DNA of 46,604 bases from a virus, in the IMG/VR virus record IMGVR_UViG_3300038701_002500, positions 1 to 46,604 of that record; one strand, 5' to 3'. Both the position numbers and the translations under genes were made by a program. The notes below the pieces were generated by a model. That model searched no databases and was not told where the DNA came from. It saw nothing but the letters and a program-made list of their open reading frames with translations. Positions 9,204 through 45,125 of the stretch are shown here, in pieces (position 1 is the stretch's first letter; the number at the start of each line of letters is the position of its first letter).

Positions 9204-9401
9204 TCAATACTCTTTGCGACATTTTGGTCTCCTGTTGTCGTACGCTCGCAGCTCTGTCTGCGCGTACTCATACCGTAGTTCACATTTCTGCAATGCGCGA
9301 GCCGTTACGGGCTCAATGCGGTTCGCAATGTAACCGCAGTACCCGCACACCGCGCCATATAGCGCAATCCCGAGCGCCTGGCATAACGTTCGCAGGCTCA
9401 T
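9204..9401 (-). CDS. Small single-pass membrane protein (65 aa)
   Basis: An N-terminal hydrophobic segment (LGIALYGAVCGYCGYIA, about 10-26) is followed by a charged helix (ARALQKCELRYEYAQTEL). The start overlaps the stop of the metzincin-like lipoprotein (ATGA). The layout resembles an inner-membrane spanin or a membrane anchor next to a lipoprotein, though this is far from the lysis genes. Function unknown. Confidence 0.65.
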   Translation of the reverse strand: MSLRTLCQALGIALYGAVCGYCGYIANRIEPVTARALQKCELRYEYAQTELRAYDNRRPKCRKEY

Positions 9402-9937
9402 AGCGGGTTGGTCCGCATTAGGTGAGTCCCAACCTCCGTCGGGATGTTGTCCTCATAGCCGCAAAAGCGCACGCCCGCGCGCCGTTTCACCGCCTGTTCC
9501 ACCCCGATGATGTACCAATTCCCCTCCACGCCGCCCCACACATGCCTATTCGAGTGCTTGTGATCGGTCTCGTGAATTCCACGCAGAACATGAAGTAGCT
9601 CGTGTCCGAATGCGGTAGAGCTAAAACATTTCCCGCTGTATGCGACCTCACCATACCCGGCATCAACGCGGACCCAGCCCCCGACCTGGGCACCATTATC
9701 CGGGCGAAACGCCTCGTCTACGATGGATAGCTCAAGACCCCTCAATCTGAGGGTATCCCCCCCGTTGAGTTTGACCGTTTCGGTGATCAGGAAATCAATT
9801 TCGTCATAGTTGAGTTCGTGCGCGGTCTCGTTGAACACGTGCACCTGGTATGCCGCGATGTAGTCCGGAGTGGCGCCGCACGCCCCCACGAAAAACGTGG
9901 CCAGAAAAATGTTTACTCGAAGTGTATAGCTGTTCAT
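9398..9937 (-). CDS. Lipoprotein with metzincin-like zinc metallopeptidase motif
   Basis: This 179-aa protein has a signal peptide (residues 1-19) ending in a lipobox VGAC with C20, then a secreted domain holding HELLH at 112-116 and a third histidine at 122, matching the HExxHxxxxxH zinc-binding pattern of metzincin peptidases. The glycine sits at place nine of the motif, not place eight as in most metzincins. Conserved-looking cysteines C104 and C159 could form a disulphide. It should be exported and anchored to a membrane, unusual for an early phage gene. It starts at ATGA overlapping the previous stop. Superinfection exclusion or envelope protein cleavage are possible roles. Confidence 0.75.
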   Translation of the reverse strand: MNSYTLRVNIFLATFFVGACGATPDYIAAYQVHVFNETAHELNYDEIDFLITETVKLNGGDTLRLRGLELSIVDEAFRPDNGAQVGGWVRVDAGYGEVAYSGKCFSSTAFGHELLHVLRGIHETDHKHSNRHVWGGVEGNWYIIGVEQAVKRRAGVRFCGYEDNIPTEVGTHLMRTNPL

Positions 9938-10820: not shown

Positions 10821-10938
10821 CCTCATCCTCCGTCGCCGTCTCTTCAACGCGTTTGTTCAGAATTGAGCGCAATCGAGCCGTCTCGATCGCTGCAACCTCG
10901 ATATCCGCCATCAACTTTTCCAATTCTTCCTTATTCAC
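10801..10938 (-). CDS. Tiny acidic helical protein (45 aa), GTG start
   Basis: The GTG at 10938 overlaps the stop of the previous gene (GGTGAATAA) and the TAG lies 20 bases inside the next gene. The product begins VNKEELEKLMADIEV and is one charged helix. Fit between neighbours and lack of shadow character support it; no function can be given. Confidence 0.6.
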   Translation of the reverse strand: MNKEELEKLMADIEVAAIETARLRSILNKRVEETATEDEDATRKI

Positions 10939-11110
10939 CGAGTGCTGCCTCCGCTAACATTTGAATTAGGGTTGTCAAATCATCGCCGTTATCCAGGCAT
11001 AGTGCCCGCGCCTCTTCACTCGTTAAAATCACAATGATTTCGGCAAGCAAAAGCGAATCCCGCACCTCACGATGGGTTACCATCGTTGTTCCCGCTCCAA
11101 AATCCATCAT
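10931..11110 (-). CDS. Small helical protein of unknown function (59 aa)
   Basis: Starts at ATG 11110 (GGAG five bases upstream), overlapping the TGA of the lipoprotein-like gene. Amphipathic helices (REVRDSLLLAEIIVILTSEE, LTTLIQMLAEAALGE). A TTG at 11125 is a weaker alternative start. Unknown role. Confidence 0.65.
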   Translation of the reverse strand: MMDFGAGTTMVTHREVRDSLLLAEIIVILTSEEARALCLDNGDDLTTLIQMLAEAALGE

Positions 11111-11301
11111 TCGCTCCAATTCCAACTAAGGTTCTCAAGTTTCGTGCCAGCAAGCGGCTCTACCCGCTCCACCACACCATCATAGGCCACACATTGGCCT
11201 GCAACGACCGCCGGGCCGTAGTCCTCGTTGTTCCAAGAACCGCTTGCATCTGAGCAGGGCGGTAGGATTGTCATCGCTGCGATAAAACTAAAAATAAACA
11301 T
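11107..11301 (-). CDS. Small secreted or lipoprotein-like protein (64 aa)
   Basis: The N-terminus MFIFSFIAAMTILPPC is a short hydrophobic leader followed by a cysteine at 16, which could be a lipobox in a non-standard context. The rest is polar with a second cysteine. GGAG lies before the ATG at 11301; a longer frame to 11523 runs through the neighbour gene in another register and was not used. It may be a small envelope lipoprotein. Confidence 0.62.
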   Translation of the reverse strand: MFIFSFIAAMTILPPCSDASGSWNNEDYGPAVVAGQCVAYDGVVERVEPLAGTKLENLSWNWSE

Positions 11302-11302
11302 G

Positions 11303-11584
11303 TTAAGCTCCGAATTTGTATAGGCGTTCAAGGTCGTTGTAGATGAGTTCGTTAACAGAATCAGGCTCTGGCCCATTCTCCCCCCAAGCGGGGGTGTAGA
11401 TCGCCGATAGGGCGCAATAGAGCCGGTACAGATCCGAGGATTGCCCGCCATGGTGTTCTGCGCTGAACCAATACAACGCAATAATTGCCTCATAGCAGGC
11501 GAATTGCCGACCATCGATGACACAATCTAGCGCCATTGATTTGGCCGCTCTACAGTAATCAGATATTGAGGGTTCGATTCGCAT
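11303..11584 (-). CDS. Protein of unknown function (93 aa)
   Basis: GGAGGT stands upstream of the ATG at 11584. The protein is rich in tyrosine, alanine and acidic residues (CYEAIIALYWFSAEHH, DLYRLYCALSAIYTP) and ends LERLYKFGA; it looks globular and helical. Along with the tiny frame before it, it opens the second leftward gene group after the gene-poor region. No family recognised. Confidence 0.7.
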   Translation of the reverse strand: MRIEPSISDYCRAAKSMALDCVIDGRQFACYEAIIALYWFSAEHHGGQSSDLYRLYCALSAIYTPAWGENGPEPDSVNELIYNDLERLYKFGA

Positions 11585-11646
11585 TACAGCACCTCCGTTG
11601 CGTTAGCTGCTACAGTCATCAGAGTTAGTGCCCAAAGTAAAATCAT
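11584..11646 (-). CDS. Possible 20-residue hydrophobic leader peptide
   Basis: A frame from ATG 11646 to TAA overlapping the next start (TAATG) encodes a hydrophobic peptide beginning MILLWALTLMTVA. The overlap style matches other junctions in the genome and AAAGG lies 7 bases upstream. It could be a leader peptide coupling the next gene or a tiny membrane protein; it could also be chance. Confidence 0.35.
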   Translation of the reverse strand: MILLWALTLMTVAANATEVL

Positions 11647-11887
11647 GTTTTTTGCCTTTATGTTCTTGAGTGAATGCTCTGCGTTTTCACGGGGTTGCAA
11701 CCGTCCAATGCCCGCATTATTCACTTTGTCTTCCAAGCGAGTCCAGAACCCACGTCGTTGGCTATCGCCTCTGTCCTATTCGAGCGTCCCGCCCGACACT
11801 ACTATACATTGCAGGATCACTGCCAACTTTGCAGGCGTAACGATTACAGGGACTTAGCGCCGATAGGCGCGCACGTTCCATACCAAA

Positions 11888-11973
11888 CTATGACAGAGAT
11901 GTCGCGCGCTCGCGTAAGTGCCCGATATCACTAGTGACTTCCATGTCATAGCGATGATGCGAATGTCATAGCG
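11888..11973. repeat. Operator-like repeats of TGTCATAG
   Basis: TGTCATAG occurs at 11945-11952 and 11965-11972 within two copies of ATGTCATAGCG spaced 20 bases apart (two helical turns), and inverted at 11888-11895. Such same-face spacing suggests a binding array for a regulator, possibly the helix-turn-helix protein at 10167-10820. Confidence 0.5.
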
Positions 11974-12003
11974 GAGGAAAAACGTAGGCCACATCTGTTT
12001 TTA

Positions 12004-12013
12004 ACCGGCCGGT
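12004..12013. repeat. Palindrome ACCGGCCGGT
   Basis: Perfect 10-base dyad flanked by TTA and AAC. It may be an operator half of a larger site; no partner copy was noticed nearby. Confidence 0.4.
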
Positions 12014-12229
12014 AACAAATAGGGGTGTGCGAAAAGGAAAGGGGGAGTAGGCACTCACTCATACACAACGCAATGCGTCAAGCAAAAGCAATGTCAAAGT
12101 TATGTAAAAGTTGAAGCCGCCCGTTCCACTCCCCCGAGGGTACCTGTCTCGATGACGCGGCGTGTTATATGTATGGTCTACGAACGAAGTGAGGCGTTTT
12201 CTCGCGTGCGGACCAACTTAAAAACCCGA

Positions 12230-12256
12230 GGGAGGGAGGGAGGGAGGGAGGGAGGG
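12230..12256 (+). repeat. Seven GGG runs separated by single A (G-quadruplex former)
   Basis: GGG at 12230, 12234, 12238, 12242, 12246, 12250 and 12254, each followed by one A. Single-base loops favour a very stable parallel quadruplex on the plus strand and a C-rich i-motif strand opposite. It lies about 60 bases past the U-run of the leftward terminator. Confidence 0.9.
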
Positions 12257-12316
12257 TCATAATTAAAAGACCCCTCATAAGGCCAGACCTTATAATCCGA
12301 AAAATGCGGGGAACAG

Positions 12317-12379
12317 AAAAAAGCGCTCGTTGGAGACAAAAGGTCGGTAGATATGAATAAGTAAAGACCTTTTGTCTCC
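12317..12379 (-). terminator. Strong leftward terminator with 14-bp stem
   Basis: GGAGACAAAAGGTC (12332-12345) is the exact inverse of 12366-12379 around a 20-base loop. On the minus strand an outer TCGTT/AACGA pairing closes the structure and is followed by GCGC and six T (12322-12317). It ends the operon 16135-12445. The unusual loop and branch could also make it a processed small-RNA end. Confidence 0.75.
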
Positions 12380-12444
12380 GCGGAGCCGCTCAACGAACTA
12401 ACGACCCGGGGCGAGCCGCTCGTCCTCCGTCCTCGCGGACAGCA

Positions 12445-12831
12445 TTAAGGGTAATGTCCTTCCTGGTTACGAAACGCCTCGCATGAGGTGCAGTAGCGTG
12501 TTGGTGAGTGCTTCGCGGATTCGCCGCAACTCCAGCAAGCAGTAGTAAACTCGAAGGCCTCCCTCCGGCAAATGTCACGCATCATTCGCTTGATATTCTT
12601 CCGGTGGGTCTCTTGAACCGCTCGATCCTGAAAGTCCCGGGGGTCGACGCTCCAACCCTCCCAGGGGGAGAAGTCGTCCTCGTCCTCCAAGACTTTAAGC
12701 GGCTTAGTCGTCCGCTTCGCGTCCTGGGCCTCTTGTGCTAGGCGGGCGTCCTTAGCAGGACAGTCCCCTCCTCTAGTCGACGGGCACCCATTCATCATGA
12801 GGGCCTGCATTGTACATTCACACTTACGCAT
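12445..12831 (-). CDS. Small cysteine-rich zinc-binding-like protein (128 aa)
   Basis: The N-terminus has CEC, GCPS and DCPA cysteines and the C-terminal part has CWSCGES...RYCTSC, a four-cysteine zinc ribbon. Start at ATG 12831 with GGAGG before it. It is the last gene of the early cassette, 66 bases before the terminator stem. Function unknown; a protein-protein or nucleic-acid adapter would fit the zinc sites. Confidence 0.75.
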   Translation of the reverse strand: MRKCECTMQALMMNGCPSTRGGDCPAKDARLAQEAQDAKRTTKPLKVLEDEDDFSPWEGWSVDPRDFQDRAVQETHRKNIKRMMRDICRREAFEFTTACWSCGESAKHSPTRYCTSCEAFRNQEGHYP

Positions 12832-13141
12832 CGTATCCTCCAAAGTCTTGAGTCGTTTGGGCTAGTGCATCGAGCTGAGCCGTCCTCAACCGCGTAAAAA
12901 ATACAGCATGACCCCTGACCTTTAAGTATTGTGCGAGCCTTCGTTTAACTTCGGCTGCAATCTCCTCTGGGGTACGGTCTGCACACCACTTATCGGAAAG
13001 AAGAGGGAAAAACGTTTCCCCACCGAAAGTGTGATCCTTCAACCGAACATAGGTCATACAGTCCTTCCGATAAAGAACCAAATCCACAAAGAGCTCTTCG
13101 AGTTCCCTGTTTAGTTCAGGGCAATTAGGTACATGCTTCAT
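12824..13141 (-). CDS. Protein of unknown function (105 aa)
   Basis: Start at 13141 preceded by AGGAGG; the frame extends to 13231 through the Tad2-like gene in shadow. Mixed fold with helices (NRELEELFVDLVLY, PEEIAAEVKRRLAQYL) and a strand AVFFTRL. Overlaps neighbours at both ends. No family recognised. Confidence 0.72.
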   Translation of the reverse strand: MKHVPNCPELNRELEELFVDLVLYRKDCMTYVRLKDHTFGGETFFPLLSDKWCADRTPEEIAAEVKRRLAQYLKVRGHAVFFTRLRTAQLDALAQTTQDFGGYDA

Positions 13142-13523
13142 CCTCTGGCTCCTCCTTTCTATGCTCCGCCAAGACCCAATCGTTGGCCAATAGGTCCTGT
13201 ACAGATGGCTGCCACCCCCAAGGCCCCCCATCTATGGAGCGGGCAATAATATTGTCTGACGCGTAGTAAAGGTAGTCTATATTCCCTGGGGCATATGAAC
13301 GGCGCCTGACCTCCCACCCCTTTTGCATCTGAGCGAGCGCCCAACCAAAGTCATGCCCGGGAGGCCCTTCCTCTACGAGGCGCTGTAGGCACTTCGCCCA
13401 CTCTTCAGGGGTAAAGTCGCGAAACACACTCTCCCCAAACTCCGTGGTGTGGCGTACCTTGACGGTACCATCGAAATCAAGAGTTAGTCCCGCAGCACCC
13501 CCATCCAATGCTAGGTTAATCAT
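13125..13523 (-). CDS. DUF2829/Tad2-like protein, candidate anti-Thoeris factor
   Basis: Residues 59-121 of this 132-aa protein follow the DUF2829 pattern: FGWALAQMQKG, a VRRRSY strand, a YLYY strand, and the signature WQPSVQDLLANDWVL near the end. Proteins of this family include Thoeris anti-defence 2 (Tad2), which captures the NAD-derived signal of Thoeris immunity. About 55 extra N-terminal residues (strand-rich, then helix) precede the domain. AAGGAGGAG lies upstream of the ATG at 13523. Its place in the early cassette suits an anti-defence role; the exact ligand is unknown. Confidence 0.78.
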   Translation of the reverse strand: MINLALDGGAAGLTLDFDGTVKVRHTTEFGESVFRDFTPEEWAKCLQRLVEEGPPGHDFGWALAQMQKGWEVRRRSYAPGNIDYLYYASDNIIARSIDGGPWGWQPSVQDLLANDWVLAEHRKEEPEDEACT

Positions 13524-13717
13524 CTGTCTCCTCCTTTGTTAAAGAATGTTTTGCACTTCCTACATCGAGCCGTCACCTTAATCAGGCCGAACAAGAGCGC
13601 CCGACACGGCTCCCAATCGTGGTAGCAAGTCGCTGGCCTACGAGAGAGGGCAGACGAGCGCTCACTATCTAAGGCCCTTTGTGGGTCGGACGGGCGCTCA
13701 CTACGCTCACCGGTCAT
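13520..13717 (-). CDS. Small arginine-rich protein with CxxC (65 aa)
   Basis: Start at 13717 (ATGA overlapping the previous stop). The first third is disordered and arginine/serine-rich, then CYHDWEPC and CRKCKTFF supply four cysteines for one zinc site. The longer frame to 13792 is a shadow. Unknown function. Confidence 0.65.
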   Translation of the reverse strand: MTGERSERPSDPQRALDSERSSALSRRPATCYHDWEPCRALLFGLIKVTARCRKCKTFFNKGGDR

Positions 13718-14082
13718 AGCTCGTCCTCCAAAGGAGGCATCTTTAGGTCGTAGAGGAGGGCAACACAGAGTAATGCTGTTTCCCAGTTGCACACTTCCAC
13801 ACCGTCATGGACCCTCTGTAGGGCCCCCAACAGAGACAAAGAAACCTCTTCTAGAGACGGCGCGAAGGTACCCTCCCTACGGCGCAAGAGAGTTTCTATT
13901 GCCTTACCCTCCATAGAAGGTTCATATTCCTCGTCGGGAATAAGGCACCCAATTGCACACATCTTCCCGTCCTCCCCACGATAGCGACACCGGAGGGCCT
14001 CATCCTCCTCCCTTATAGAGCGTTCTCCCTGCTGCCTTAGGTGTTGTACCACCTTTGTGAATGCTTCTTGGTTAGTCATCAT
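13714..14082 (-). CDS. Conserved phage protein of unknown function (122 aa)
   Basis: The segment CRYRGEDGKMCAIGCLIPDEEY (read here as residues about 31-52) is a pattern I associate with small phage proteins of unknown role; two cysteines flank a glycine. Helical N- and C-terminal parts. The start overlaps the stop of the previous gene (CTATGATG). It belongs to the early cassette. Confidence 0.72.
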   Translation of the reverse strand: MMTNQEAFTKVVQHLRQQGERSIREEDEALRCRYRGEDGKMCAIGCLIPDEEYEPSMEGKAIETLLRRREGTFAPSLEEVSLSLLGALQRVHDGVEVCNWETALLCVALLYDLKMPPLEDEL

Positions 14083-14327
14083 AGCTCCTCCTCTCCTTCG
14101 CGCAGAATACGCACTGCGTTAGTCAAGCGTTGGACCTCCGCCTCAAGCCGCTCGATCTGATTGGCCGCTTCCTCCATCGTTCGGGGCTTACCGTCGTAGA
14201 TCGAGTCCACGTAGACCTGGCGCCCGTCGAGATACACCAGGGGCTTTTTCTCTGAGTACGCTCGCATACGCATCCCCTCGAGATAGACTTCCACTTTCAT
14301 CTCCTTTGCTGTCGTCTTGACCTTCAT
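14079..14327 (-). CDS. Small protein with C-terminal coiled coil (82 aa)
   Basis: Beta-rich N-terminal half (KVEVYLEGMRMRAY, PLVYLDGRQVYVD) and a heptad-like helix EEAANQIERLEAEVQRLTNAV. AAGGAGGACC stands before the ATG at 14327. It probably oligomerises. No family recognised. Confidence 0.7.
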   Translation of the reverse strand: MKVKTTAKEMKVEVYLEGMRMRAYSEKKPLVYLDGRQVYVDSIYDGKPRTMEEAANQIERLEAEVQRLTNAVRILREGEEEL

Positions 14328-14812
14328 GAATGGTCCTCCTTAATATCGATCCGTCGTGTACAGCGGGGCGCGATGTCCTCCAGAGCACGGCCTCTCCTGT
14401 ACCATGCTCTAATTTCTAAGTAGTCAAAAACTCCCCACCACTTTTCTTCAACCCGTATTACATGAGAGGTGAGAGTCCCATCTAATACGTTGGTGATTGT
14501 GTACAGAGAAGCGGTGTTGAGGTCCGCAGACTCCACCATGTAAACTGCCTCTGCCTCGGGGTGGGCCATCAATTCTTTAACGACGTCCCCAAGAGGGTGT
14601 GGCAGGTCACAGCGCGAAGGGGGTAGGAGGCTGGATGGCAATGCCCCTGGGTGTTCCGGCTCAAGGGCATCCATTAGTTGTGCGGCTATTAGTTTCTCCT
14701 TAGGCTTCTCTAACCGTGCGATAACTTTCATCAAACGGTCCCAGTACTCGATTTTCTTTTGCTCAGCAATAGTTCGAGGTAACTTTAACTCCAACTCCAA
14801 TCCCTTCATCAT
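14324..14812 (-). CDS. Protein of unknown function (162 aa)
   Basis: Start at 14812 in ATGATG with AGAGG upstream, overlapping the previous stop; the frame open to 14854 has no better site. Contains a helical N-terminal half and a strand-rich middle (AEAVYMVESADLNTASLYTI). Part of the early cassette. Confidence 0.7.
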   Translation of the reverse strand: MMKGLELELKLPRTIAEQKKIEYWDRLMKVIARLEKPKEKLIAAQLMDALEPEHPGALPSSLLPPSRCDLPHPLGDVVKELMAHPEAEAVYMVESADLNTASLYTITNVLDGTLTSHVIRVEEKWWGVFDYLEIRAWYRRGRALEDIAPRCTRRIDIKEDHS

Positions 14813-15090
14813 CCTCTTTCTCTCCTTCGCTCCATCATGTAGCGCTGACGCCACTCCTCTAATTCGAGGCCTGCGTCTATATTCATATCAGGCCTCAGCT
14901 CAATGTAATCCCAAAAAGGCTCGTTCAAGTCCGGCTGCGGCTCGAGGCCATCATCATAAACGTCATTCGGGTACGGGAACCACTCACTGTTCCGGAGGAC
15001 CCCAAGCGGTCTCCCCATGTACGTGACTTCGAAGAGGCGCCCGTCCCCGGACAATAAGTATAGGTCTGTCCAGAGATCATCCCTGTCCAT
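14809..15090 (-). CDS. Protein of unknown function (93 aa)
   Basis: Acidic in the middle (YDDGLEPQPDLNEPFWDYIEL) and basic at the end (RQRYMMERRRERG). Start at 15090 behind CGGAGG. Overlaps both neighbours. The acidic tyrosine/aspartate-rich stretch is reminiscent of DNA-mimic proteins, but that is speculation. Confidence 0.68.
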   Translation of the reverse strand: MDRDDLWTDLYLLSGDGRLFEVTYMGRPLGVLRNSEWFPYPNDVYDDGLEPQPDLNEPFWDYIELRPDMNIDAGLELEEWRQRYMMERRRERG

Positions 15091-15484
15091 TGGAAGGGCC
15101 TCCGCGGCCTGAGAACGCCCGCAATCGGAGTGTCTCCTGATACCAACTCTGCATGTCTCGACGCGCTTGATCCCTCTCCTGGGTGATCTTTGTCAAACGG
15201 TTCTGTAACTCTCTGTTCGACTGCTCTAGGTCAAGCGCTTCCTGCCACTTCTGCTCCATGCGCGCTCGAAGGTGCACATTATCTGCGTGATAGTGCTTGA
15301 TAAACTCATGTGCTGTCGCTAGGTCCTTTGGGCACATCCCCGGTTCGACTTCGGGCGATTCGCTCTCGGCGACCTTGTTCCTAAGCGCGAATAGCTCCGT
15401 CCCAAGGCGAGCGTTCTCCTCCCTGAGGTGCTTAATTTCCCTGGCGAGGGTCCGCTCGCCTTGCTCGTCTAGTTTTAGCCGCAT
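15077..15484 (-). CDS. Long coiled-coil protein (135 aa)
   Basis: Nearly the whole protein is charged heptad helix (REIKHLREENARLGTELFAL, NRELQNRLTKITQERDQARR). Start at 15484 with GGGAG upstream. Likely a dimeric or trimeric rod; role unknown. Confidence 0.72.
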   Translation of the reverse strand: MRLKLDEQGERTLAREIKHLREENARLGTELFALRNKVAESESPEVEPGMCPKDLATAHEFIKHYHADNVHLRARMEQKWQEALDLEQSNRELQNRLTKITQERDQARRDMQSWYQETLRLRAFSGRGGPSNGQG

Positions 15485-15486
15485 GG

Positions 15487-15582
15487 TTAATCTCCCATCC
15501 AAAGGCCAATAACCATCAACACGGCGAAAATGAAACAGCTGACCGCGACAACGCCCGCTAGCAATCCAATATCGTAGTGCAT
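15487..15582 (-). CDS. Tiny transmembrane protein (31 aa)
   Basis: Frame from ATG 15582 (GGAGGAGTCGATA upstream) to TAA at 15487, overlapping the previous stop as TAATG. The peptide is a single hydrophobic helix (GLLAGVVAVSCFIFAVLMVI). It exactly fills the gap between two genes, so it is very likely real. It may modify the host membrane early in infection. Confidence 0.72.
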   Translation of the reverse strand: MHYDIGLLAGVVAVSCFIFAVLMVIGLWMGD

Positions 15583-15782
15583 TATCGACTCCTCCAGTCC
15601 TTGTGGCTGTCCATGCGAGATTCCTTAGGCCTATCGGCCCGGCCGTTCATGATGTGAAGTACGAGGGGAGCATCCTCCGAGGCATTGACGTGCACGAGGA
15701 CCTTATATCCCATGCCTCTCCACTTCTCGGCGACTTCGCACGCTTCTGCATAAGTACTGCGTGTTAGGCGAATGGTCTGCAT
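15582..15782 (-). CDS. Small protein of unknown function (66 aa)
   Basis: Helix then strand pattern (TYAEACEVAEKWRGMGYKVLVHV). Start at 15782 behind GGGGGAG and overlapping the previous stop (TAATG). Unknown. Confidence 0.68.
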   Translation of the reverse strand: MQTIRLTRSTYAEACEVAEKWRGMGYKVLVHVNASEDAPLVLHIMNGRADRPKESRMDSHKDWRSR

Positions 15783-16135
15783 TACTCTCCCCCTTCTATG
15801 ATGTTCGCACTGTGAAAGCTGGACCTAGTTATTCCGGGAAGCTGCTGCTGCCCGAACTCATCCATGAAAGCCTCCTTCTTCGCTCGTTTGAGGGTCTTCT
15901 GCTTAACTTCCTCGGAGTGCAAGAGTAGATCCAAAGAGGTATTCTCTTCTCCTACCTTCTGCGTGAGTTCCCTACCTTTAACGTACTGCGGATGGAAGAC
16001 AGTAGCTTCTTTGGGATAAGCTTCTTCAATCCGGAGGCGTAGCTGACCCCTCTGGGGTCCAGCGGAGACCTCCGATAGCACTGTGGTTTTCAGAATGTAA
16101 CCTTCACGGGTTAGCACCCAAGTTAATGCCGACAT
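15782..16135 (-). CDS. First gene of the early leftward cassette (117 aa)
   Basis: The N-terminus is strand-rich (ALTWVLTREGYILKTTVL), followed by a charged helical middle (EEVKQKTLKRAKKEAF) and a polar end. AAGGGGG is placed well before the ATG at 16135, right beside the inverted repeat at 16148-16204. As the first gene expressed leftward it may be an early host-takeover protein, but no family is recognised. Confidence 0.7.
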   Translation of the reverse strand: MSALTWVLTREGYILKTTVLSEVSAGPQRGQLRLRIEEAYPKEATVFHPQYVKGRELTQKVGEENTSLDLLLHSEEVKQKTLKRAKKEAFMDEFGQQQLPGITRSSFHSANIIEGGE

Positions 16136-16147
16136 AATACCCCCTTA

Positions 16148-16204
16148 ATAGGTAGTTAATGGGTCAGAGTTAATCCCTAGTTAATGTCCCCATTAACTAC
16201 CTAT
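16148..16204. repeat. 16-bp inverted repeat with AGTTAAT direct repeats
   Basis: ATAGGTAGTTAATGGG (16148-16163) is the exact inverse of 16189-16204. AGTTAAT occurs directly at 16154, 16168 and 16179 and inverted at 16192. It abuts the ribosome-binding site of the first leftward gene, as an operator or iteron would. Confidence 0.75.
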
Positions 16205-16238
16205 AATATCCCTCACCTCCATGCAAGGGTTAAAAGTT

Positions 16239-16271
16239 GGGAAAAACGCACGTACTTTCGTGCATTTTCCC
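16239..16271. repeat. Imperfect 13/14-bp dyad
   Basis: GGGAAAAACGCACG (16239-16252) pairs with CGTGCATTTTCCC (16259-16271) with one extra base, around loop TACTTT. It could be an operator, or a hairpin in either transcript. Confidence 0.6.
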
Positions 16272-16294
16272 TAAAAATTTCCACTGCTGGAGTA

Positions 16295-16323
16295 TTGACT
16301 TTTCTCTTCATTTATGGTAAACT
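16295..16323 (+). promoter_or_regulatory. Rightward sigma-70-like promoter
   Basis: TTGACT (16295-16300), 17-base spacer and TAAACT (16318-16323): five of six and four of six matches to consensus. It would drive the structural arm with a leader of about 280 bases. Confidence 0.6.
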
Positions 16324-16343
16324 CGACTTATATACGAAGTTAA

Positions 16344-16400
16344 GGCGAGTAGCCCCAAGGCGTACTCGCCAGGCTTCACGTAGGAGGCGACTCCTCTTTT
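16344..16400 (+). promoter_or_regulatory. Leader hairpins of the rightward transcript (possible attenuator)
   Basis: GGCGAGTA (16344-16351) pairs with TACTCGCC (16363-16370); then AGGAG-GCGA-CTCCT (16382-16395) is followed by C and TTTT. The second is a short terminator-like hairpin about 70 bases after the expected transcription start. Confidence 0.5.
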
Positions 16401-16609
16401 ATAAGTTAAGACTGAAAGTTTACTAAGATAACCTAATGAGTAAGTCTTAGACCTTCTCTTGCTGTCTCCGGTCGAGGGCCCTTTAGGGGCCTCTCCCTAC
16501 GACAGGACAGTATTCTTTAATAAAGAGAATAAAAGAAATGGGGGAGAGCCCCCGCAAAACTACATTTCCCTACATTGCACATTCCATGCCACTGTACTAA
16601 GGTCCAGCT

Positions 16610-16816
16610 ATGAACACCGAACCCTATGATTGCCTTGAACTGTGGATAACGGAAGATCAGCGATGGGAGGCCCAACGAGCGCTTCATCGCGGGGATTGCT
16701 TCGAAAAACTAGAGGGAGATCTTCTAGCTATGGAAGCGCTCGATATCTACTATCGACATGGCTACCCAGCTCCGATGGAACTTAAGCTCCGAGCGCTCGA
16801 AGAGATCAAAGAGTGA
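16610..16816 (+). CDS. Small acidic protein, first rightward gene (68 aa)
   Basis: AAGG lies upstream of the ATG at 16610. Helical, acidic (LEGDLLAMEALDIYYRHGYP, ELKLRALEEIKE). Its TGA overlaps the GTG start of the next gene. As the first gene of the packaging cluster it could be a terminase accessory; no family recognised. Confidence 0.68.
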   Translation: MNTEPYDCLELWITEDQRWEAQRALHRGDCFEKLEGDLLAMEALDIYYRHGYPAPMELKLRALEEIKE

Positions 16817-17205
16817 ACGACCTTCCGACGATCGATCCCCAAATGTTCCCAGTAGTCGAGGGGAAGAAACGCAAACCCATCTACCACTGCGGTCTGATCG
16901 CTCACCCAAAGACGGTTGAAGCTTTCCAGAAAAGGGGATGGGAACCGATTGATCTTCGCTTGCAAGAATCGGGCCCAGAGACGCTCAAGAACTGGTTAGA
17001 AGGCATTAGATTTGGTACAATAGAGGCTAATCGCCAAACGGAGAAATTCGTAGAGCTAGAACTCAAAGCGTATGGAGTGCTCGCGAATCGAAAGCAAGAA
17101 GAGAAGAAGAAAGACGATACAATCGCGGATCTAGACGACATGTTCGCTTCTCTCCCCGCCCACTACACGAATCCCAAGAGAACTAAGGGCAAGAAGGATA
17201 AGTAA
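16813..17205 (+). CDS. Candidate terminase small subunit (130 aa)
   Basis: Starts at GTG 16813 overlapping the previous stop. A central amphipathic helix region (LKNWLEGIRFGTIEANRQTE) and a lysine-rich end (KRTKGKKDK) with a coiled coil KQEEKKKDDTIADLDD. Size, helical content and position before the large terminase suit a small terminase, but six small genes intervene and no helix-turn-helix is certain. Confidence 0.4.
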   Translation: MNDLPTIDPQMFPVVEGKKRKPIYHCGLIAHPKTVEAFQKRGWEPIDLRLQESGPETLKNWLEGIRFGTIEANRQTEKFVELELKAYGVLANRKQEEKKKDDTIADLDDMFASLPAHYTNPKRTKGKKDK

Positions 17206-17591
17206 TGGCCACCCGCTACACCAAGACACAGATTAAGACCCTCATCTCCGACAATTCCGACCATAACGACCCTGATTGCCGCTCGACCTTCACGGCCGTG
17301 ACAAACTCCGTAACTGAGGGGCTCGCTTACGTAGTCCAAGCGGCTACCGGTGGCACCACTGTCGACCTGACCAACTTCACGACCCTTAACGAAGTCATCC
17401 TCCATAACACGGATACCACCAACTTCGTCACCCTCCTATTCAGCGCTGACAACGGGAACATCTCAGGAGCCACCCTCCGTATTCCTGCGGGCGCTCAAGT
17501 CTGCCTAACCGATGTGGACCCTGCGAGCACTTTCACCCTCACAGCAGACACAGCAGCTGTCTGTGTAGACCTTATGGCATGGGGCGATTGA
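17205..17591 (+). CDS. Beta-rich structural-type protein (128 aa)
   Basis: Starts at TAATG overlap. Threonine-rich strands (GGTTVDLTNFTTLNEVILHN, TNFVTLLFSADNGNISG) and a phrase RIPAGAQVCL typical of small virion surface domains. First of six beta-rich proteins before the large terminase; probably a decoration, fibre or head-completion protein. Confidence 0.65.
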   Translation: MATRYTKTQIKTLISDNSDHNDPDCRSTFTAVTNSVTEGLAYVVQAATGGTTVDLTNFTTLNEVILHNTDTTNFVTLLFSADNGNISGATLRIPAGAQVCLTDVDPASTFTLTADTAAVCVDLMAWGD

Positions 17592-17947
17592 TGGCTGGTA
17601 GTGGGTTCGCAAAAACCGCACTATTCCGTCTTAGCAATGCTACTTCCGATGCTGGGGCGGGAATCGAGGTAACGGTCGTCACCAAGACAACTGATTTTAC
17701 CCTTGGCACGGCCACAGACGTTATTTTGGCAGACGCTTCTGCAGGGGCTATCACCATCTCCCTTCCTGCGGCTGCTAATGCCTCTGGGAAGCTCTTCTGG
17801 ATCAAGAAGATAGACTCCAGTGCAAATCTCGTCACAGTCGATCCTGACGGTTCCGAGTGCATTGACCAGTACACTTCCCTAGCCCTTTGCGAGCGTGGAG
17901 ACGCAGTGCAGATTGTCTCTAACGCTAGCCAGTGGTGGATTATATGA
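17591..17947 (+). CDS. Beta-rich protein of phage surface-domain type (118 aa)
   Basis: Start at ATG 17591 overlapping the previous TGA; 17579 is a weaker alternative. Sequence pattern DVILADASAGAITISLPAA, then GKLFWIKKID and NLVTVDPDGSECID, then SQWWII is a recurring beta-structured module in phage fibre and decoration proteins. Likely a virion surface protein. Confidence 0.68.
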   Translation: MAGSGFAKTALFRLSNATSDAGAGIEVTVVTKTTDFTLGTATDVILADASAGAITISLPAAANASGKLFWIKKIDSSANLVTVDPDGSECIDQYTSLALCERGDAVQIVSNASQWWII

Positions 17948-18306
17948 GTTTCATCCAGAACGCAGACTTCCCTATTCCAGGGGAATCGGCCATATGCGTT
18001 GACTATAAATTCAATGCCTCCCAGGGCAAAATCACTGTTAATGAGTCGGACCTTACGGGCGTCCTCCTTGTGATTAATCTTGCTGACGGCCAGGTTATAT
18101 TTAACCCTACAAAGCCTGCCTTGACGGGTGACCTGCGCGGAAATGCGCTCTACTTAACGTTGGACACCTCCACCATGGATGATGGGGACCCACTCCTAAT
18201 TATTGCATCGGTGGACCGGCATTCCGCGCAGGAACGGCTGCTAATCGAAGTTCGTAATGAACTTAAAGAACTAAACTTCATTCTTAGAGGAATCGCAGAA
18301 CAATGA
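17944..18306 (+). CDS. Beta-rich protein of unknown function (120 aa)
   Basis: ATGA start at 17944. Strand-rich body (GKITVNESDLTGVLLVINLA) and a C-terminal amphipathic helix (LIEVRNELKELNFILRGIAEQ) that could mediate trimer or head contact. Coupled to the next gene by ATGA. Confidence 0.65.
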   Translation: MSFIQNADFPIPGESAICVDYKFNASQGKITVNESDLTGVLLVINLADGQVIFNPTKPALTGDLRGNALYLTLDTSTMDDGDPLLIIASVDRHSAQERLLIEVRNELKELNFILRGIAEQ

Positions 18307-18896
18307 AAGTCGAACTAACTGACGGGGCTGGAAAAGGCTATTTAGGTAAAATAGGGTCGGATAACCGCCTTTACACTTCCTCCGTTATCCGCACCCAAAT
18401 CCAGCAGGCTACGATTGAGGGTAATACTTATAATGTCAATACCGGTACAATTACGCTTTCCGGTACTACGCGGTCGGGCGTGCTTTATATCAAGAATAAT
18501 GAGAGCCGAGACCTACACATCGACACGATTGTCGTAATTCTTGGACCTTCGACAGGTGGGGCAAGCACTGACACTACTTTTATTGAATTTGTGCGAAACC
18601 CCACGACGGGTACCCTCATCTCGGGTGCGAGTGAAGTCGACATGAACCAAAACCGGAACTTCGGTAGCTCGAATACGTTAACAGTAGATGCCTATAAAGG
18701 GGCACACGGGAATACCATTACGGATGGTACCAACATCATTGAGTCTTTAGTATCCCCTGGGAGTCGGGCAGTCTTTTCTATTGATTTGTTACTTCCACAA
18801 GGTAGCTCTCTAGGGGTTGCGTATACCGCCCCCGCTTCGAATACAAACATGGAAGTTCAATGTGCGGCTATTTGTCGCTTGGAGGATAACTCGTAA
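18303..18896 (+). CDS. Beta-rich virion-type protein, paralogue 1 (197 aa)
   Basis: Opens MKVELTDGAGKGYLGKI and holds YIKNNESRDLHIDTIVVIL followed by long serine/threonine-rich strands and a LPQGSSLGVAYTAP segment. These parts recur in the next gene (FKNNEEVDIIIDEIAI; LPKGKAIGISVEPP) and partly in the one after. The order and style suggest gene duplication. Virion decoration or fibre role inferred. Confidence 0.7.
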   Translation: MKVELTDGAGKGYLGKIGSDNRLYTSSVIRTQIQQATIEGNTYNVNTGTITLSGTTRSGVLYIKNNESRDLHIDTIVVILGPSTGGASTDTTFIEFVRNPTTGTLISGASEVDMNQNRNFGSSNTLTVDAYKGAHGNTITDGTNIIESLVSPGSRAVFSIDLLLPQGSSLGVAYTAPASNTNMEVQCAAICRLEDNS

Positions 18897-19486
18897 TGTC
18901 CACTAGAATTGCTGATGGCACCGGAAAGACTGCATTCGCCCGTGTAGATGCCTCGAACCACCTCCACACCCGCGGGGTCGTGCGCTCTGAGGTTAATCTA
19001 GCTGCCCAAGAAGGACGAGCGTTCCAGTGCGGGACGACTACTGTCGCTTTAACAAGTGCTAATGACTCTGCAATCTACTACTTCAAGAACAATGAAGAAG
19101 TGGACATTATTATAGACGAGATTGCCATCAATAGTAGTGCGCACGCCACAAGCGGAACGGACGACTACCTTATCTTCTCCTTCACCGCAGACCCTACCAG
19201 CATCTCAGCGACTAACGCGGCGGCCTGCGCGGATGTGCGTATTGGGGATACGACAGTCCCCGATGTGACCCACTACACTGGAGCAGAGGCAGCCACTTTC
19301 ACGGGAGGGACGAGCATTCCTCTGGCGGCTTCGCTTGAAGTGAACCGCTTTCACACTTTGAAGTCCCAGGTTGCCCTTCCCAAAGGGAAGGCAATTGGCA
19401 TCTCCGTCGAGCCTCCAACAGGTACCACTGGGTTGAATGTCACCGTTGCCCTCCGTGTCTATCTAGCCCCCACGGACGACCTCTAA
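18896..19486 (+). CDS. Beta-rich virion-type protein, paralogue 2 (196 aa)
   Basis: Same plan as its upstream neighbour: IADGTGKTAFARVD opening, YYFKNNEEVDIIIDEIAI, and LPKGKAIGISVEPPTG near the end. Start TAATG overlap at 18896. Probably a second copy with different specificity. Confidence 0.7.
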   Translation: MSTRIADGTGKTAFARVDASNHLHTRGVVRSEVNLAAQEGRAFQCGTTTVALTSANDSAIYYFKNNEEVDIIIDEIAINSSAHATSGTDDYLIFSFTADPTSISATNAAACADVRIGDTTVPDVTHYTGAEAATFTGGTSIPLAASLEVNRFHTLKSQVALPKGKAIGISVEPPTGTTGLNVTVALRVYLAPTDDL

Positions 19487-20115
19487 TGGCGATTAACGTC
19501 AAGCAGTATAATGCTCGGGGAGAGCCACACGGACAGAACATTACGCCGTGTGGTGCAGGGGATGTGGTGATACACCAACACCCCTCGAAGTGTACTAGCG
19601 ACCTTGCAACCCCTTATGTAGAGTTTCTGACAGACTCTGCAGGGTCTTCGGATATGGTAGTGAACGGGGGGGCAACTGCCCAAATCTTTAGTGTAGACGC
19701 TGAACAAGAGAAGAACATCTACATTAAACAGCTCATCATTGTTATCGCAGACGCCAGCGCTACCCTAAATAAGTTCGGTAACATCAACGCTCTTTCAAAC
19801 GGGTGCATCCTACGTTGGGTAACCCAAGATGCAGGTAGTGTTCAGCTAGGGCCTAACCTAACCTCTAACTTTGAGATCATACGGGCCGCGGGCTTTAACC
19901 CCGCATTTGGCGACGGCAATGGGGTCTTCAAAGCCAACAACGTAGAGGGGGCGTCTGAAGGTTATTTGGCAGTGTACGACTTCCAGAAATCCCATGGCTA
20001 CCCTTGGGGGCTACCATTACGGGTGGGCACTACGGATCGCATTGAGTTCGTTATTCAGGACAATATCTCCGCCATCGATCGCCTAGACATTCAGGCCTCC
20101 GGAATTCGCTTCTAG
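19486..20115 (+). CDS. Beta-rich virion-type protein, paralogue 3 (209 aa)
   Basis: Begins MAINVKQYNARGEPHG and carries EQEKNIYIKQLIIVIADASA, equivalent to the KNNE...IDTIVV segment of the two genes before. More divergent than they are. Ends one base before the terminase start. Confidence 0.65.
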   Translation: MAINVKQYNARGEPHGQNITPCGAGDVVIHQHPSKCTSDLATPYVEFLTDSAGSSDMVVNGGATAQIFSVDAEQEKNIYIKQLIIVIADASATLNKFGNINALSNGCILRWVTQDAGSVQLGPNLTSNFEIIRAAGFNPAFGDGNGVFKANNVEGASEGYLAVYDFQKSHGYPWGLPLRVGTTDRIEFVIQDNISAIDRLDIQASGIRF

Positions 20116-28352: not shown

Positions 28353-28381
28353 TTGACAAAGTTTCTCCTTGGGGTTATCTG
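28353..28381 (+). promoter_or_regulatory. Possible promoter of the HNH gene
   Basis: TTGACA (28353-28358), 17-base spacer, then TATCTG (28376-28381): perfect -35, weak -10. Would make the endonuclease message independent of the capsid operon. Confidence 0.4.
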
Positions 28382-28412
28382 GAAAGTATCCCTTAATCCC
28401 TTGGAGAAACAT

Positions 28413-28934
28413 ATGTCAAAAGTTAAACGAGTCATTACCGGCACAGACCTCACTCCGAAAGACCTCCGTCGTTTTTGGTCGAAGGTAGAGAAGGGTGAGG
28501 GCTGCTGGGAATGGCAAGCCTCCCTACTTGGGGGTGGTTACGGTGGTTATTGCTACCCTATAAACGGGAAGCTACAGAATATCGGCGCGCATAGAGTATC
28601 CTGGGTTATCCATAATGGGCCCTACGATCAGTCGAATCAGGTCGTTTGCCACAAGTGTGATAACCGGAAGTGTGTTAACCCCGACCATCTGTTCCTTGGG
28701 ACACAGTCGGATAACATCAAGGACGCAGTAAAGAAGCGACGCTTCACTGTCGGGTCCAAGCACAAGTTGTCCAAGTTGACGGAAGATGACGTGCGGGCGA
28801 TACGCAAGTTATATACCAACGTTCCTGCGGGTTACCGAAAGCCTGCTTTTGCTTCGGTGGCGCGGGAATACGGTGTAGACCCTACGATTATCTCTCGTAT
28901 TGTGAAGGGAACTATCTGGAAGCATGTAAAATAG
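28413..28934 (+). CDS. HNH homing endonuclease
   Basis: 173 aa. HNH_3-type core: AHRVSW, then CHKCDNRKCVNPDHLFLGT with the zinc/metal-binding residues and NI..; a C-terminal helix-turn-helix YGVDPTIISRIVKG. Start at 28413 with TTGGAG upstream. Sits between structural genes as mobile endonucleases often do. Similar in plan to 44655-45125. Confidence 0.88.
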   Translation: MSKVKRVITGTDLTPKDLRRFWSKVEKGEGCWEWQASLLGGGYGGYCYPINGKLQNIGAHRVSWVIHNGPYDQSNQVVCHKCDNRKCVNPDHLFLGTQSDNIKDAVKKRRFTVGSKHKLSKLTEDDVRAIRKLYTNVPAGYRKPAFASVAREYGVDPTIISRIVKGTIWKHVK

Positions 28935-33852: not shown

Positions 33853-34383
33853 ATGAGCTACCTCGTATTGACAAATGACACGCTGTCGGACCCCGCCGAC
33901 AAGACCGAGGTTGAAGCCAACTTCTCGGATATAAAAACCCTAGTTAATGGTAACATTAGCTCTGATAATATCTCCGAGTTGGACGTCGATAAGTTGACGG
34001 GCCAGTACTACAACCACCTGCTCTCCTTCGATTCGGTCGATCTCAGCACCGCTACGACCAGTGCTACTGGGGAGTGTATCCTCATCCCGGCAGGCACCTG
34101 GACAATCGTTAGCGCTCATTGGGCTGCAAAGAACACCGGGGGTAACACCGCCACTGTTCAGGTGGAAGAAGGCAGTTGGGATGGCTCAGGGGCGTTTACT
34201 TCTACCAAGGCGACATCGGCCGCAACTATCTCTACGGCTTCTGGAACGTTCACAGCGAGCACCTTTACTGGGACCACCACGGGAGGGGCAGGTATCTGCT
34301 ACCGGGTTAACGTAACCGGCAACGACGGAACTGCCACAGACCTGCACGTCACCGTAGTCCTTAAGCGAAAGATCCACACGTAA
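33853..34383 (+). CDS. Beta-rich tail or fibre protein (176 aa)
   Basis: N-terminal helix (DPADKTEVEANFSDIKTLVN) is a common attachment motif of phage tail fibres, followed by a threonine-rich C1q/jelly-roll-type domain (GECILIPAGTWTIVSAHW, GGNTATVQVEEGSW). Probably a receptor-binding or side fibre component. Confidence 0.65.
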   Translation: MSYLVLTNDTLSDPADKTEVEANFSDIKTLVNGNISSDNISELDVDKLTGQYYNHLLSFDSVDLSTATTSATGECILIPAGTWTIVSAHWAAKNTGGNTATVQVEEGSWDGSGAFTSTKATSAATISTASGTFTASTFTGTTTGGAGICYRVNVTGNDGTATDLHVTVVLKRKIHT

Positions 34384-41384: not shown

Positions 41385-42265
41385 TGGCCGGGCGTCGGCG
41401 TGGAAAATCGGGCCGCTTCTTAGAGGGGCGGCTTTCTGGCGGCTTGCACCCAGGCGGGCCCGTTCGGGGCTTCAAGCGTGGGGCAGCGCTCACTACCTCC
41501 CAAACTCTGGGGGACACCTTCACCTATAATGGTCAGGACGCACCCGCTGAGTTTCGCTTCGACGGCACCGAGTTCCCCTTCGATGGGACGGCGTTTTCCC
41601 GGAACTGGGCAGATGAAGTTTCTGGCACGAATCTTGCGGCAGAGGGCTCTTCGCCTGCGGTTACTTCTGTAACCGACTTTGCAGGAGCGAATGCCCCCTT
41701 CTTCGATGGCAATGGAGCAACGTTTGGTGAGCGCTTCGTCAGTGGTGAGTCGGACCTAGGAGATGTTGGCACGGCCGACTTCATCTTAGAGGCCATCATC
41801 CGCATTCCGGGCGCAGTTTCGGGCGTTATGGTCGCCAAGCAGCTGAACAACTCCAATGACGGTTGGTCATTCCGGACCAATGCCAGCAACATTTATATGA
41901 ACCTTAACTCCCCATTAGGGGCGGTTAATATCCTCATTTCGCGGGCCACCTTCACCTTGGATGAGTGGAACCACTTTGTGCTCGCGATCGACCGGTCGGG
42001 GAACGGGATTATGTGGTGTGGTGAGACGGGCGTAGCCCAGACAGCTGTGGTCACGGGCGTGGCGGATTCTATGGACAACGCGCTCGGCCTCGCCATCGGG
42101 GACTTCTCATCCTCAACAAACACCAAGGCCGAATTCGAACTTGCACATACCGCTATGTACCTCCCGAGCAATCTGGACCTCTCAAGCAGTACAAACCTCG
42201 TCGCCGCCTGTAACGCTCGGTATGAAGCAATTGGCGGGACCCCCGGGAGTACGTTAGGAACGTGA
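41384..42265 (+). CDS. LamG/concanavalin-like protein, candidate receptor binder
   Basis: 293 aa. The basic N-terminus (RRRGKSGRFLEGRL) could anchor to virion; residues about 110-270 have the LamG pattern (DFILEAIIRIPG, GWSFRTN, FTLDEWNHFVLAIDRSGNG). This fold binds sugars or proteins. Probably tail spike/fibre tip. Confidence 0.7.
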   Translation: MAGRRRGKSGRFLEGRLSGGLHPGGPVRGFKRGAALTTSQTLGDTFTYNGQDAPAEFRFDGTEFPFDGTAFSRNWADEVSGTNLAAEGSSPAVTSVTDFAGANAPFFDGNGATFGERFVSGESDLGDVGTADFILEAIIRIPGAVSGVMVAKQLNNSNDGWSFRTNASNIYMNLNSPLGAVNILISRATFTLDEWNHFVLAIDRSGNGIMWCGETGVAQTAVVTGVADSMDNALGLAIGDFSSSTNTKAEFELAHTAMYLPSNLDLSSSTNLVAACNARYEAIGGTPGSTLGT

Positions 42266-43911: not shown

Positions 43912-44658
43912 ATGACCAAAACAAAGCGCATCATCATCTTCCCGGACGCCCACTGGCCGTTCGTTGACAAGAAAGCCTGGGCCCTTGCCTGCAAAGCAGC
44001 GAAAGGCTTTAAGCCAGATATCTTTGTTAATCTTGGCGATTGCTACGATTTCAATGCTACTAAGCGCCATCGTAAGCTCCCCAAGATCGAAAAAGATACC
44101 TGGTCATTGCAGAAAGAGCTGTCTAAGGTTCAGAAGGCGGCCACAGACATGCTTGCTATCGGAGCAAAACGAAATGTCTTCATCATGGGTAACCATGAGG
44201 ACAACTTTGATCGATACATCGCAGACCGAGCGCCCGAATTAGCGGGCCTCTTCGATGTGCCGGAACTGGTGGGACTTGATGAAGAAAAGTGGGAAATCGT
44301 CGGCTACCGAGACGACATCAAAATCGGAGCAACGTACTACACACACGAGTGTGGCTTCTCTGGAGCGAACGCAGTGAGGCAGAGCCAAGCAGCCTACGGG
44401 GGTAATGTCGTACATGGTCATACACATCGTATGGACTACCGTATACGGGGCAATCTCCGTGGCCAACCGCATGTCGGCGCTAGCTTTGGGTGGCTCGGAG
44501 ATGTGAAACAGGTAGATTATATGCATCGGGTGTCCAAAGCGCGCGAGATGATTCACGGATTTGGCTATGGTTACATACTCCCGAACGGCGAGACCCATCT
44601 CCGTCCTGCCCCCATCGTTAAGGGGAAGGTCATCGTCGAAGGTAAGATTTACAAATGA
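43912..44658 (+). CDS. Calcineurin-like metallophosphoesterase (248 aa)
   Basis: Complete set of motifs: D12-x-H14 (PDAHW), D43 in NLGDCYD, GNHED with N94-H95, H145 in YTHECG and GHTH at 169-172. Hydrolyses phosphoesters; in phages such proteins may process nucleotides, RNA or signalling nucleotides, and the substrate cannot be told here. Start at 43912 without a ribosome-binding site. The last base region overlaps the HNH start (ATGA). Confidence 0.9.
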   Translation: MTKTKRIIIFPDAHWPFVDKKAWALACKAAKGFKPDIFVNLGDCYDFNATKRHRKLPKIEKDTWSLQKELSKVQKAATDMLAIGAKRNVFIMGNHEDNFDRYIADRAPELAGLFDVPELVGLDEEKWEIVGYRDDIKIGATYYTHECGFSGANAVRQSQAAYGGNVVHGHTHRMDYRIRGNLRGQPHVGASFGWLGDVKQVDYMHRVSKAREMIHGFGYGYILPNGETHLRPAPIVKGKVIVEGKIYK

Positions 44659-45125
44659 TTAGTCCCCTCCTAGTAAAGCAATTCTGGTCCCGCATTAAGC
44701 GTGGGCCAGGCTGCTGGGAGTGGCAACGGGGGCGCAAGGGCTATGGCCAGGTCTGGTTAGAGGGGAAGAAGTGGTACGCACATCGGTTGGCCTACACCCT
44801 TTGTAGAGGGGAAATTCCTCCAGGAAAGAGCATCTGCCATACCTGCGACAACCCTAGGTGTGTACGTCCTAGCCATCTCTGGCTGGGTTCCCAGACAGAT
44901 AACATGCGAGACATGGGGCGCAAGGGACGCACCAATACCCAGAAGATATCCTTCGCCCAGCGACAGAAGATTCGCGCCCGTTATGCCAAGGGGGACGTGC
45001 TGCAGAAGACATTAGCCACAGAGTACGGGGTGGCCAATAGCGTGATAAGCGCGATTGTAAACTACAGGATAGGCTCCGATGACCCGAGACCAAATACCAA
45101 AAAGCATTCACCTAGGGGGCCATGA
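44655..45125 (+). CDS. HNH homing endonuclease, second copy (156 aa)
   Basis: AHRLAYTL, ICHTCDNPRCVRPSHLWLG and TDNMRD form an HNH_3 core; a C-terminal YGVANSVISAIV is helix-turn-helix-like. Related in plan to 28413-28934, with about the same length. ATGA start overlapping phosphoesterase. Confidence 0.88.
   Translation: MISPLLVKQFWSRIKRGPGCWEWQRGRKGYGQVWLEGKKWYAHRLAYTLCRGEIPPGKSICHTCDNPRCVRPSHLWLGSQTDNMRDMGRKGRTNTQKISFAQRQKIRARYAKGDVLQKTLATEYGVANSVISAIVNYRIGSDDPRPNTKKHSPRGP

Follow-up and report, generated by a model that had tools for sequence, protein, structure and literature searches.

The window analysed here, the whole 46,604-nucleotide IMG/VR virus record IMGVR_UViG_3300038701_002500, carries a cassette of twelve small genes, g1 to g12, read in one block from position 16135 down to 12445 on the minus strand. 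The block is best read as an ordinary operon with unfamiliar contents, and is likely to be the promoter-proximal early operon of a podovirus of lytic type, with an accessory or host-takeover role. A preliminary description made from the sequence alone had called it a prime candidate for an island serving anti-defence or host takeover; the takeover part of that proposal is the one favoured below, whereas an anti-defence role is plausible for at least one of the products. The genes are as follows:

g1, 15782-16135, minus strand: 117 residues, no known family
g2, 15582-15782, minus strand: 66 residues, basic, no known family
g3, 15487-15582, minus strand: 31 residues, a single hydrophobic segment of membrane type by sequence
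g4, 15077-15484, minus strand: 135 residues, ATG start with GGGAG, coiled coil
g5, 14809-15090, minus strand: 93 residues, acidic, with a basic C-terminal tail
g6, 14324-14812, minus strand: 162 residues, no known family
g7, 14079-14327, minus strand: 82 residues, C-terminal half coiled-coil-like
g8, 13714-14082, minus strand: 122 residues, phrog_17693 family
g9, 13520-13717, minus strand: 65 residues, possible zinc motif in the C-terminal half
g10, 13125-13523, minus strand: 132 residues, an N-terminal extension of about 56 residues followed by a short-form Tad2-like domain (residues 58-118)
g11, 12824-13141, minus strand: 105 residues, no known family
g12, 12445-12831, minus strand: 128 residues, Cys-rich N-terminus and zinc-ribbon-like C-terminus (CxxC...CxxC)

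The claim of twelve small genes in this interval was confirmed. Minus-strand open reading frames of at least 60 residues fill 98% of the block, whereas in 300 dinucleotide shuffles such frames filled 45% on average and never more than 74%. When the codon usage of the large genes of the phage was applied, the annotated frame was the best of the six in 11 of the 12 genes. Adjacent genes overlap at 10 of the 11 junctions, by 1-17 nucleotides (nt), which is close to the 1-20 bases first given, except that g3 and g4 are separated by a 2-nt gap; from g1 to g12 the overlaps are 1 and 1 nt, then the gap, then 14, 4, 4, 4, 4, 4, 17 and 8 nt. A Shine-Dalgarno-like sequence is present at all 12 starts, compared with 21 of 65 (32%) of the other ATGs on the minus strand and 6 of 43 on the plus strand. 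No frameshift or internal stop was found, each gene keeping its start, its Shine-Dalgarno sequence and its coupled junction. The junction pattern and the ribosome sites reflect translational coupling and not chance.

Co-directional coupled genes, ribosome sites and a terminator support reading the block as a single operon, whose borders would be marked by the following elements:

12317-12386, minus strand: intrinsic terminator with a 14-bp perfect stem core, 30-nt arms, a large loop and a U6 tail (12322-12317)
16148-16204, minus strand: leader inverted repeat, perfect over 16 bp, ending just before the Shine-Dalgarno sequence of g1
16136-16600, no strand assigned: control region from which the leftward cassette and the rightward structural genes diverge

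The terminator hairpin (12325-12386, 60 nt) has a minimum free energy of -32.7 kcal/mol and a z score of -5.3, none of 200 shuffled sequences being as stable; this hairpin downstream of g12 was missed by a standard terminator scan because of its long loop. The leader inverted repeat also forms a hairpin as RNA (z score -3.8). Its TTAAT/ATTAAC units recur at intervals of about one helical turn, and TTAAT/ATTAA units are arrayed within and around it, so the element may serve as an operator, as a leader that stabilises the mRNA, or as both. The exact leader 9-mer, CATTAACTA, has one isolated copy elsewhere, at 33941 inside a structural-gene region; its total is at chance level, so a network of operators is not supported. 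A longer form of the motif gave 48 loose matches versus 23 expected, mostly with three mismatches.

The place of the cassette in the genome supports the early-operon reading. The two ends of the contig (1-128 and 46477-46604) overlap by 128 bases, of which 125 in a row are identical, a mismatch lying close to each tip, and the gene for DNA polymerase A, split between the ends, continues across the overlap. The identity of the ends shows that the genome is circular and complete, with a size of about 46.48 kb, and hence that its two-arm map is real; circularity is evident although the record lists no end repeat. The arms diverge from 16.2-16.6 kb. The rightward one holds the structural genes (terminase, portal, capsid, tail, endolysin). 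On the leftward one the cassette comes first, and after it come the genes for an AAA_25/primase-helicase-like ATPase, an SNF2-type helicase, a RecB-like exonuclease, a Sak4-like annealing protein and DNA polymerase A. As the cassette opens the arm that bears the replication genes, on the strand opposite to the structural genes, we infer with good grounds that it is expressed early. Small co-oriented genes of unknown function beside a control region are usual in podoviruses, and the distant relative MW202554 shows this arrangement too, with a different set of genes.

In the operon reading, host RNA polymerase would presumably start at the divergent control region, around 16.2 kb, and a single mRNA with a 5' hairpin would span the twelve coupled genes and end at the hairpin at 12.32 kb. 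The products of the cassette would be made first and would act on the host; they would include small proteins that bind or inhibit host enzymes, a peptide in the membrane and adaptors of coiled-coil and zinc-ribbon type, together with the g8 family protein and the Tad2-like protein. The cell would thereby be readied for the replication genes that come next on the same strand.

Some other features of the genome were recorded. Just past the terminator, a tandem GGGA repeat with the potential to form a G-quadruplex (12229-12258, plus strand) lies in a mostly non-coding stretch, and about 1.4 kb with little convincing coding (10900-12320), a possible origin or regulatory region, separates the cassette from the replication genes. 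The cumulative GC skew has its minimum in 16001-20000, near the divergent control region. Farther along the leftward arm, a predicted lipoprotein-like protein (9398-9937, minus strand) carries a HELLH motif of the HExxH metallopeptidase type and has no Pfam or PHROG match, and the rightward arm contains two HNH-endonuclease-like genes (28353-28934 and 44655-45125, both plus strand) with a CHxCDN...CVxPxHL-type motif. Rfam and tRNA scans gave no matches.

The products of the cassette had been described as almost all unrecognised, and this agrees with the searches, by which only g8 and g10 belong to recognised families. Eight of the ten remaining products have no relative at E ≤ 0.1 by tblastn in 50,697 phage records; the other two, g3 and g4, were searched in family libraries only and gave nothing beyond generic coiled-coil matches, those of g4 being below the cut-offs. 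The earlier mention of a coiled coil and of a 31-residue membrane protein is consistent with the sequences of g4 and of the hydrophobic g3, respectively. Cys-pair motifs of zinc type are also present, in g9 (CYHDWEPC...CRKC) and in g12 (CWSC...CTSC), and are retained as putative sites. Less could be kept of a stretch likened to a DNA mimic: g5 has an isoelectric point of 4.2 and a net charge of -11 over its 93 residues, which is acidic but not extreme, and it ends in a basic C-terminal tail, so this candidate was considered weak. PADLOC detected nothing, a result of little weight as its models cover defence and not anti-defence systems, and an NCBIfam search returned nothing useful.

The Tad2-like gene noticed within the block corresponds to g10, which matches Pfam PF11195 (Tad2-like, DUF2829) with an E value of 6.4e-9 and 36.7 bits, compared to a curated cut-off of 25. 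Its PHROG match is phrog_1048 (E 5.6e-7), the same family that an SPO1-like Tad2 homologue matches at 4.5e-29, and among PDB sequences it shows marginal similarity to Tad2 and AcrIIA7 chains. The domain and its core motifs are common to g10 and to the known Tad2/DUF2829 proteins (SPO1 Tad2, MoTad2, AcrIIA7-type), the alignment with long-form members revealing conserved F-x-x-AL, K-x-G, R and W-x-P-S-x-x-D-x-L-A-x-D-W elements. In contrast to them, g10 carries an extra N-terminal part and lacks the insertion of about 20 residues between beta2 and beta5 as well as the GWNGKG loop; the conserved R and W are about 27-32 residues apart in short forms and about 50 in long forms. Judged from sequence alignment and not from a structure, the beta2-beta5 segment and the beta3-beta4 loop with strand beta4 are missing both in g10 and in three further short-form members, from the viral contig L098 (where a second copy is adjacent), from L099 and from phage csAssE-Sib. 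The long form is common, with 259 phage records matching the SPO1-like Tad2 homologue.

In Tad2, loops beta1-beta2 and beta3-beta4 form the pocket for glycocyclic ADP-ribose (gcADPR) together with strand beta4 and helix alpha3, and the beta2-beta5 insertion holds the site for dinucleotides (PMC12043709, a review of sponge proteins). By its sequence, g10 is thus a member of the PF11195 domain family without a feature of the characterised anti-defence proteins. As both the insertion and the GWNGKG loop are missing, the function of Tad2 should not be assumed for g10, which may bind some nucleotide even so. That g10 acts in another role and not as a sponge, for example as a binding module in regulation or DNA metabolism, is a possibility to which we give somewhat less than an even chance. 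It would fit with one weak PHROG match labelled transcriptional regulator, with a DUF2829 gene of a Vibrio phage that adjoins an asiA-like anti-sigma gene, and with the location of other DUF2829 genes near terminase and head genes or between helicase and single-stranded DNA-binding protein (SSB) genes; in L098 (L098:4920-5478), the two adjacent short-form genes lie directly upstream of a head-morphogenesis-like gene. However, g10 retains the W-x-P-S-x-x-D-x-L-A-x-D-W element, which is part of the pocket helix of Tad2, and the loop Trp is replaced by another aromatic residue (Tyr).

The second recognised product, g8, whose gene is the best conserved of the cassette, is a full-length member of phrog_17693 (PHROG profile, E 2.2e-27), with 31-44% identity to proteins of Pseudomonas, Sinorhizobium, Caulobacter and Vibrio phages; the family includes proteins of Pseudomonas pf16, Sinorhizobium phiM7 and phiM12, Caulobacter Cr30, Ralstonia phiRSL1 and others. 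A family scan detected 78 loci in viral contigs versus 4 in about 85,000 prokaryote genomes, and the family appears to be restricted to phages; the one prokaryote locus of the four that was examined belongs to a prophage of Luteibacter, with a repressor gene on one side and recombination/SSB genes on the other, as judged by reading the sequences and not by a search. In the family, residues Q18, C32, C42, A43, G45, Q89, H92 and D93 are invariant in 60 sequences. They are all present in g8, which does not differ in any notable way from its family. Such residues might form a structural metal site or a Cys-His-Asp active site.

Structure prediction, which the preliminary description had put forward as a check on each product, was informative for g8 more than for g10. 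The AlphaFold2 model of g8 made with the family alignment reached a predicted local distance difference test score (pLDDT) of 92, and neither a fold comparison with the PDB (best E 5) nor a sequence-profile search of it found any resemblance; the structures resembling the model are phage proteins only. The single-sequence model of g10 had a pLDDT of 45.7.

Homologues of g8 are found in small-gene regions of early type in unrelated phages, with two to four copies in several of them (in four places in pf16 and three times in one contig). Their direct neighbours are genes of unknown function and DNA-metabolism genes (dCMP deaminase, RadC, RNase III, Nin-type), no known anti-defence family being among the 25 most-matched Pfam families, and no other gene of the cassette was found together with g8 in the viral loci. 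One homologue, unannotated, lies in a run of small genes beside the terminase of podovirus ctDrO704 (L002:2518-2832; MW202512, record positions 41569-41883).

These data bear on the proposal that the block is a dedicated anti-defence island, in which most of the twelve genes would inhibit different defence systems and g10 would be a Tad2-like nucleotide sponge. The PF11195 domain of g10, above the Pfam cut-off, and its weak similarity to Tad2 and AcrIIA7 structures speak for it, as does the known clustering of phage anti-defence genes among small genes of unknown function (PMC7648647; PMC11722364). The cassette resembles the anti-defence islands of mobile elements (PMC7648647) in being a cluster of small unknown genes with one gene from a family that has anti-defence members, but, unlike them, it has no gene of demonstrated anti-defence activity and no recognised aca-type helix-turn-helix gene. 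In addition, a single gene of the twelve is a candidate, instead of several known anti-defence families side by side, and that gene, g10, is a divergent short form without the insertion and the loop of characterised Tad2. The relatives of this short form sit in structural-gene regions, and known anti-defence families are absent from those most often matched around g8 homologues. With g10 as its sole link to anti-defence, the block does not merit being called a prime candidate, and a dedicated island is unlikely. Since such genes generally cluster (PMC7648647; PMC11722364), it is nevertheless plausible, with about even odds, that one or more of the products counters host defence.

The cassette could also be a neutral accessory region, in which loosely selected, exchangeable genes at an arm boundary have little joint function and some of them decay. 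Its ten genes without recognised relatives would agree with this, as would the weak coding signal of g9 and the different content found in MW202554 (Podoviridae sp. ctLwi270), a distant relative. As in the present genome, a run of small unknown genes lies in MW202554 beside the structural arm, on the opposite strand, and is followed by genes for a PD-(D/E)XK nuclease and a polymerase; its small genes have no detectable homology to those of this cassette, which differs in having twelve coupled genes with a leader hairpin and a terminator. Whole-phage relatives were not found by DNA search or by viral-contig scans with the terminase, g8, portal and SNF2 helicase, and tblastn with the phage proteins gave distant matches only (capsid about 26% identical to Arthrobacter phages and 24% to MW202554; portal 20-22% to MW202554), so by sequence the virus appears to be a podovirus without close relatives. 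Against a neutral region, every gene is free of frameshifts and stops and retains its start, its Shine-Dalgarno sequence and its coupled junction, and g8 conserves its invariant core. We therefore regard this explanation as improbable.

The early-operon explanation also has observations to its disadvantage. The block had been described as one unit from the control region to a terminator, and the terminator, the coupling and the leader hairpin support this, but no convincing promoter was detected in the control region: scans of the minus strand were no better than chance, and an extended-TG promoter-like site on the plus strand (TTGACT-17-TAAACT, 16295-16323) belongs to a class of matches whose count is at chance level. 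Expression might be delayed if the leader inverted repeat served as an operator. The 65-residue g9 is the exception in codon usage, with a low-complexity N-terminal half and the weakest coding signal of the twelve. Finally, genes next to g8 homologues have a median of 95 residues versus 98 farther away, by crude gene calls, and thus show no contrast in size.

Taken jointly, g10 and its short-form relatives might be a separate branch within the Tad2 fold, whose ligand would be some signal that is neither the known gcADPR nor a cyclic dinucleotide, and g8 might be an early protein that is widespread but confined to phages, with a new fold and a site made of Cys, His and Asp. The cassette would then encode two or more classes of counter-defence or takeover proteins not described so far. 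This combination is speculative, and its chances are slim.

Early phage operons are among the main places where new inhibitors of bacterial immunity and of other bacterial machinery are found, and the one likely present here is cleanly delimited and short enough for gene-by-gene testing. Its g8 and g10 genes lead to wider families, the first apparently phage-restricted, in which some residues are invariant and for which no structural relative has been solved, and the second a shortened Tad2-like form, which warns that a match to PF11195 is not automatically an anti-Thoeris protein.

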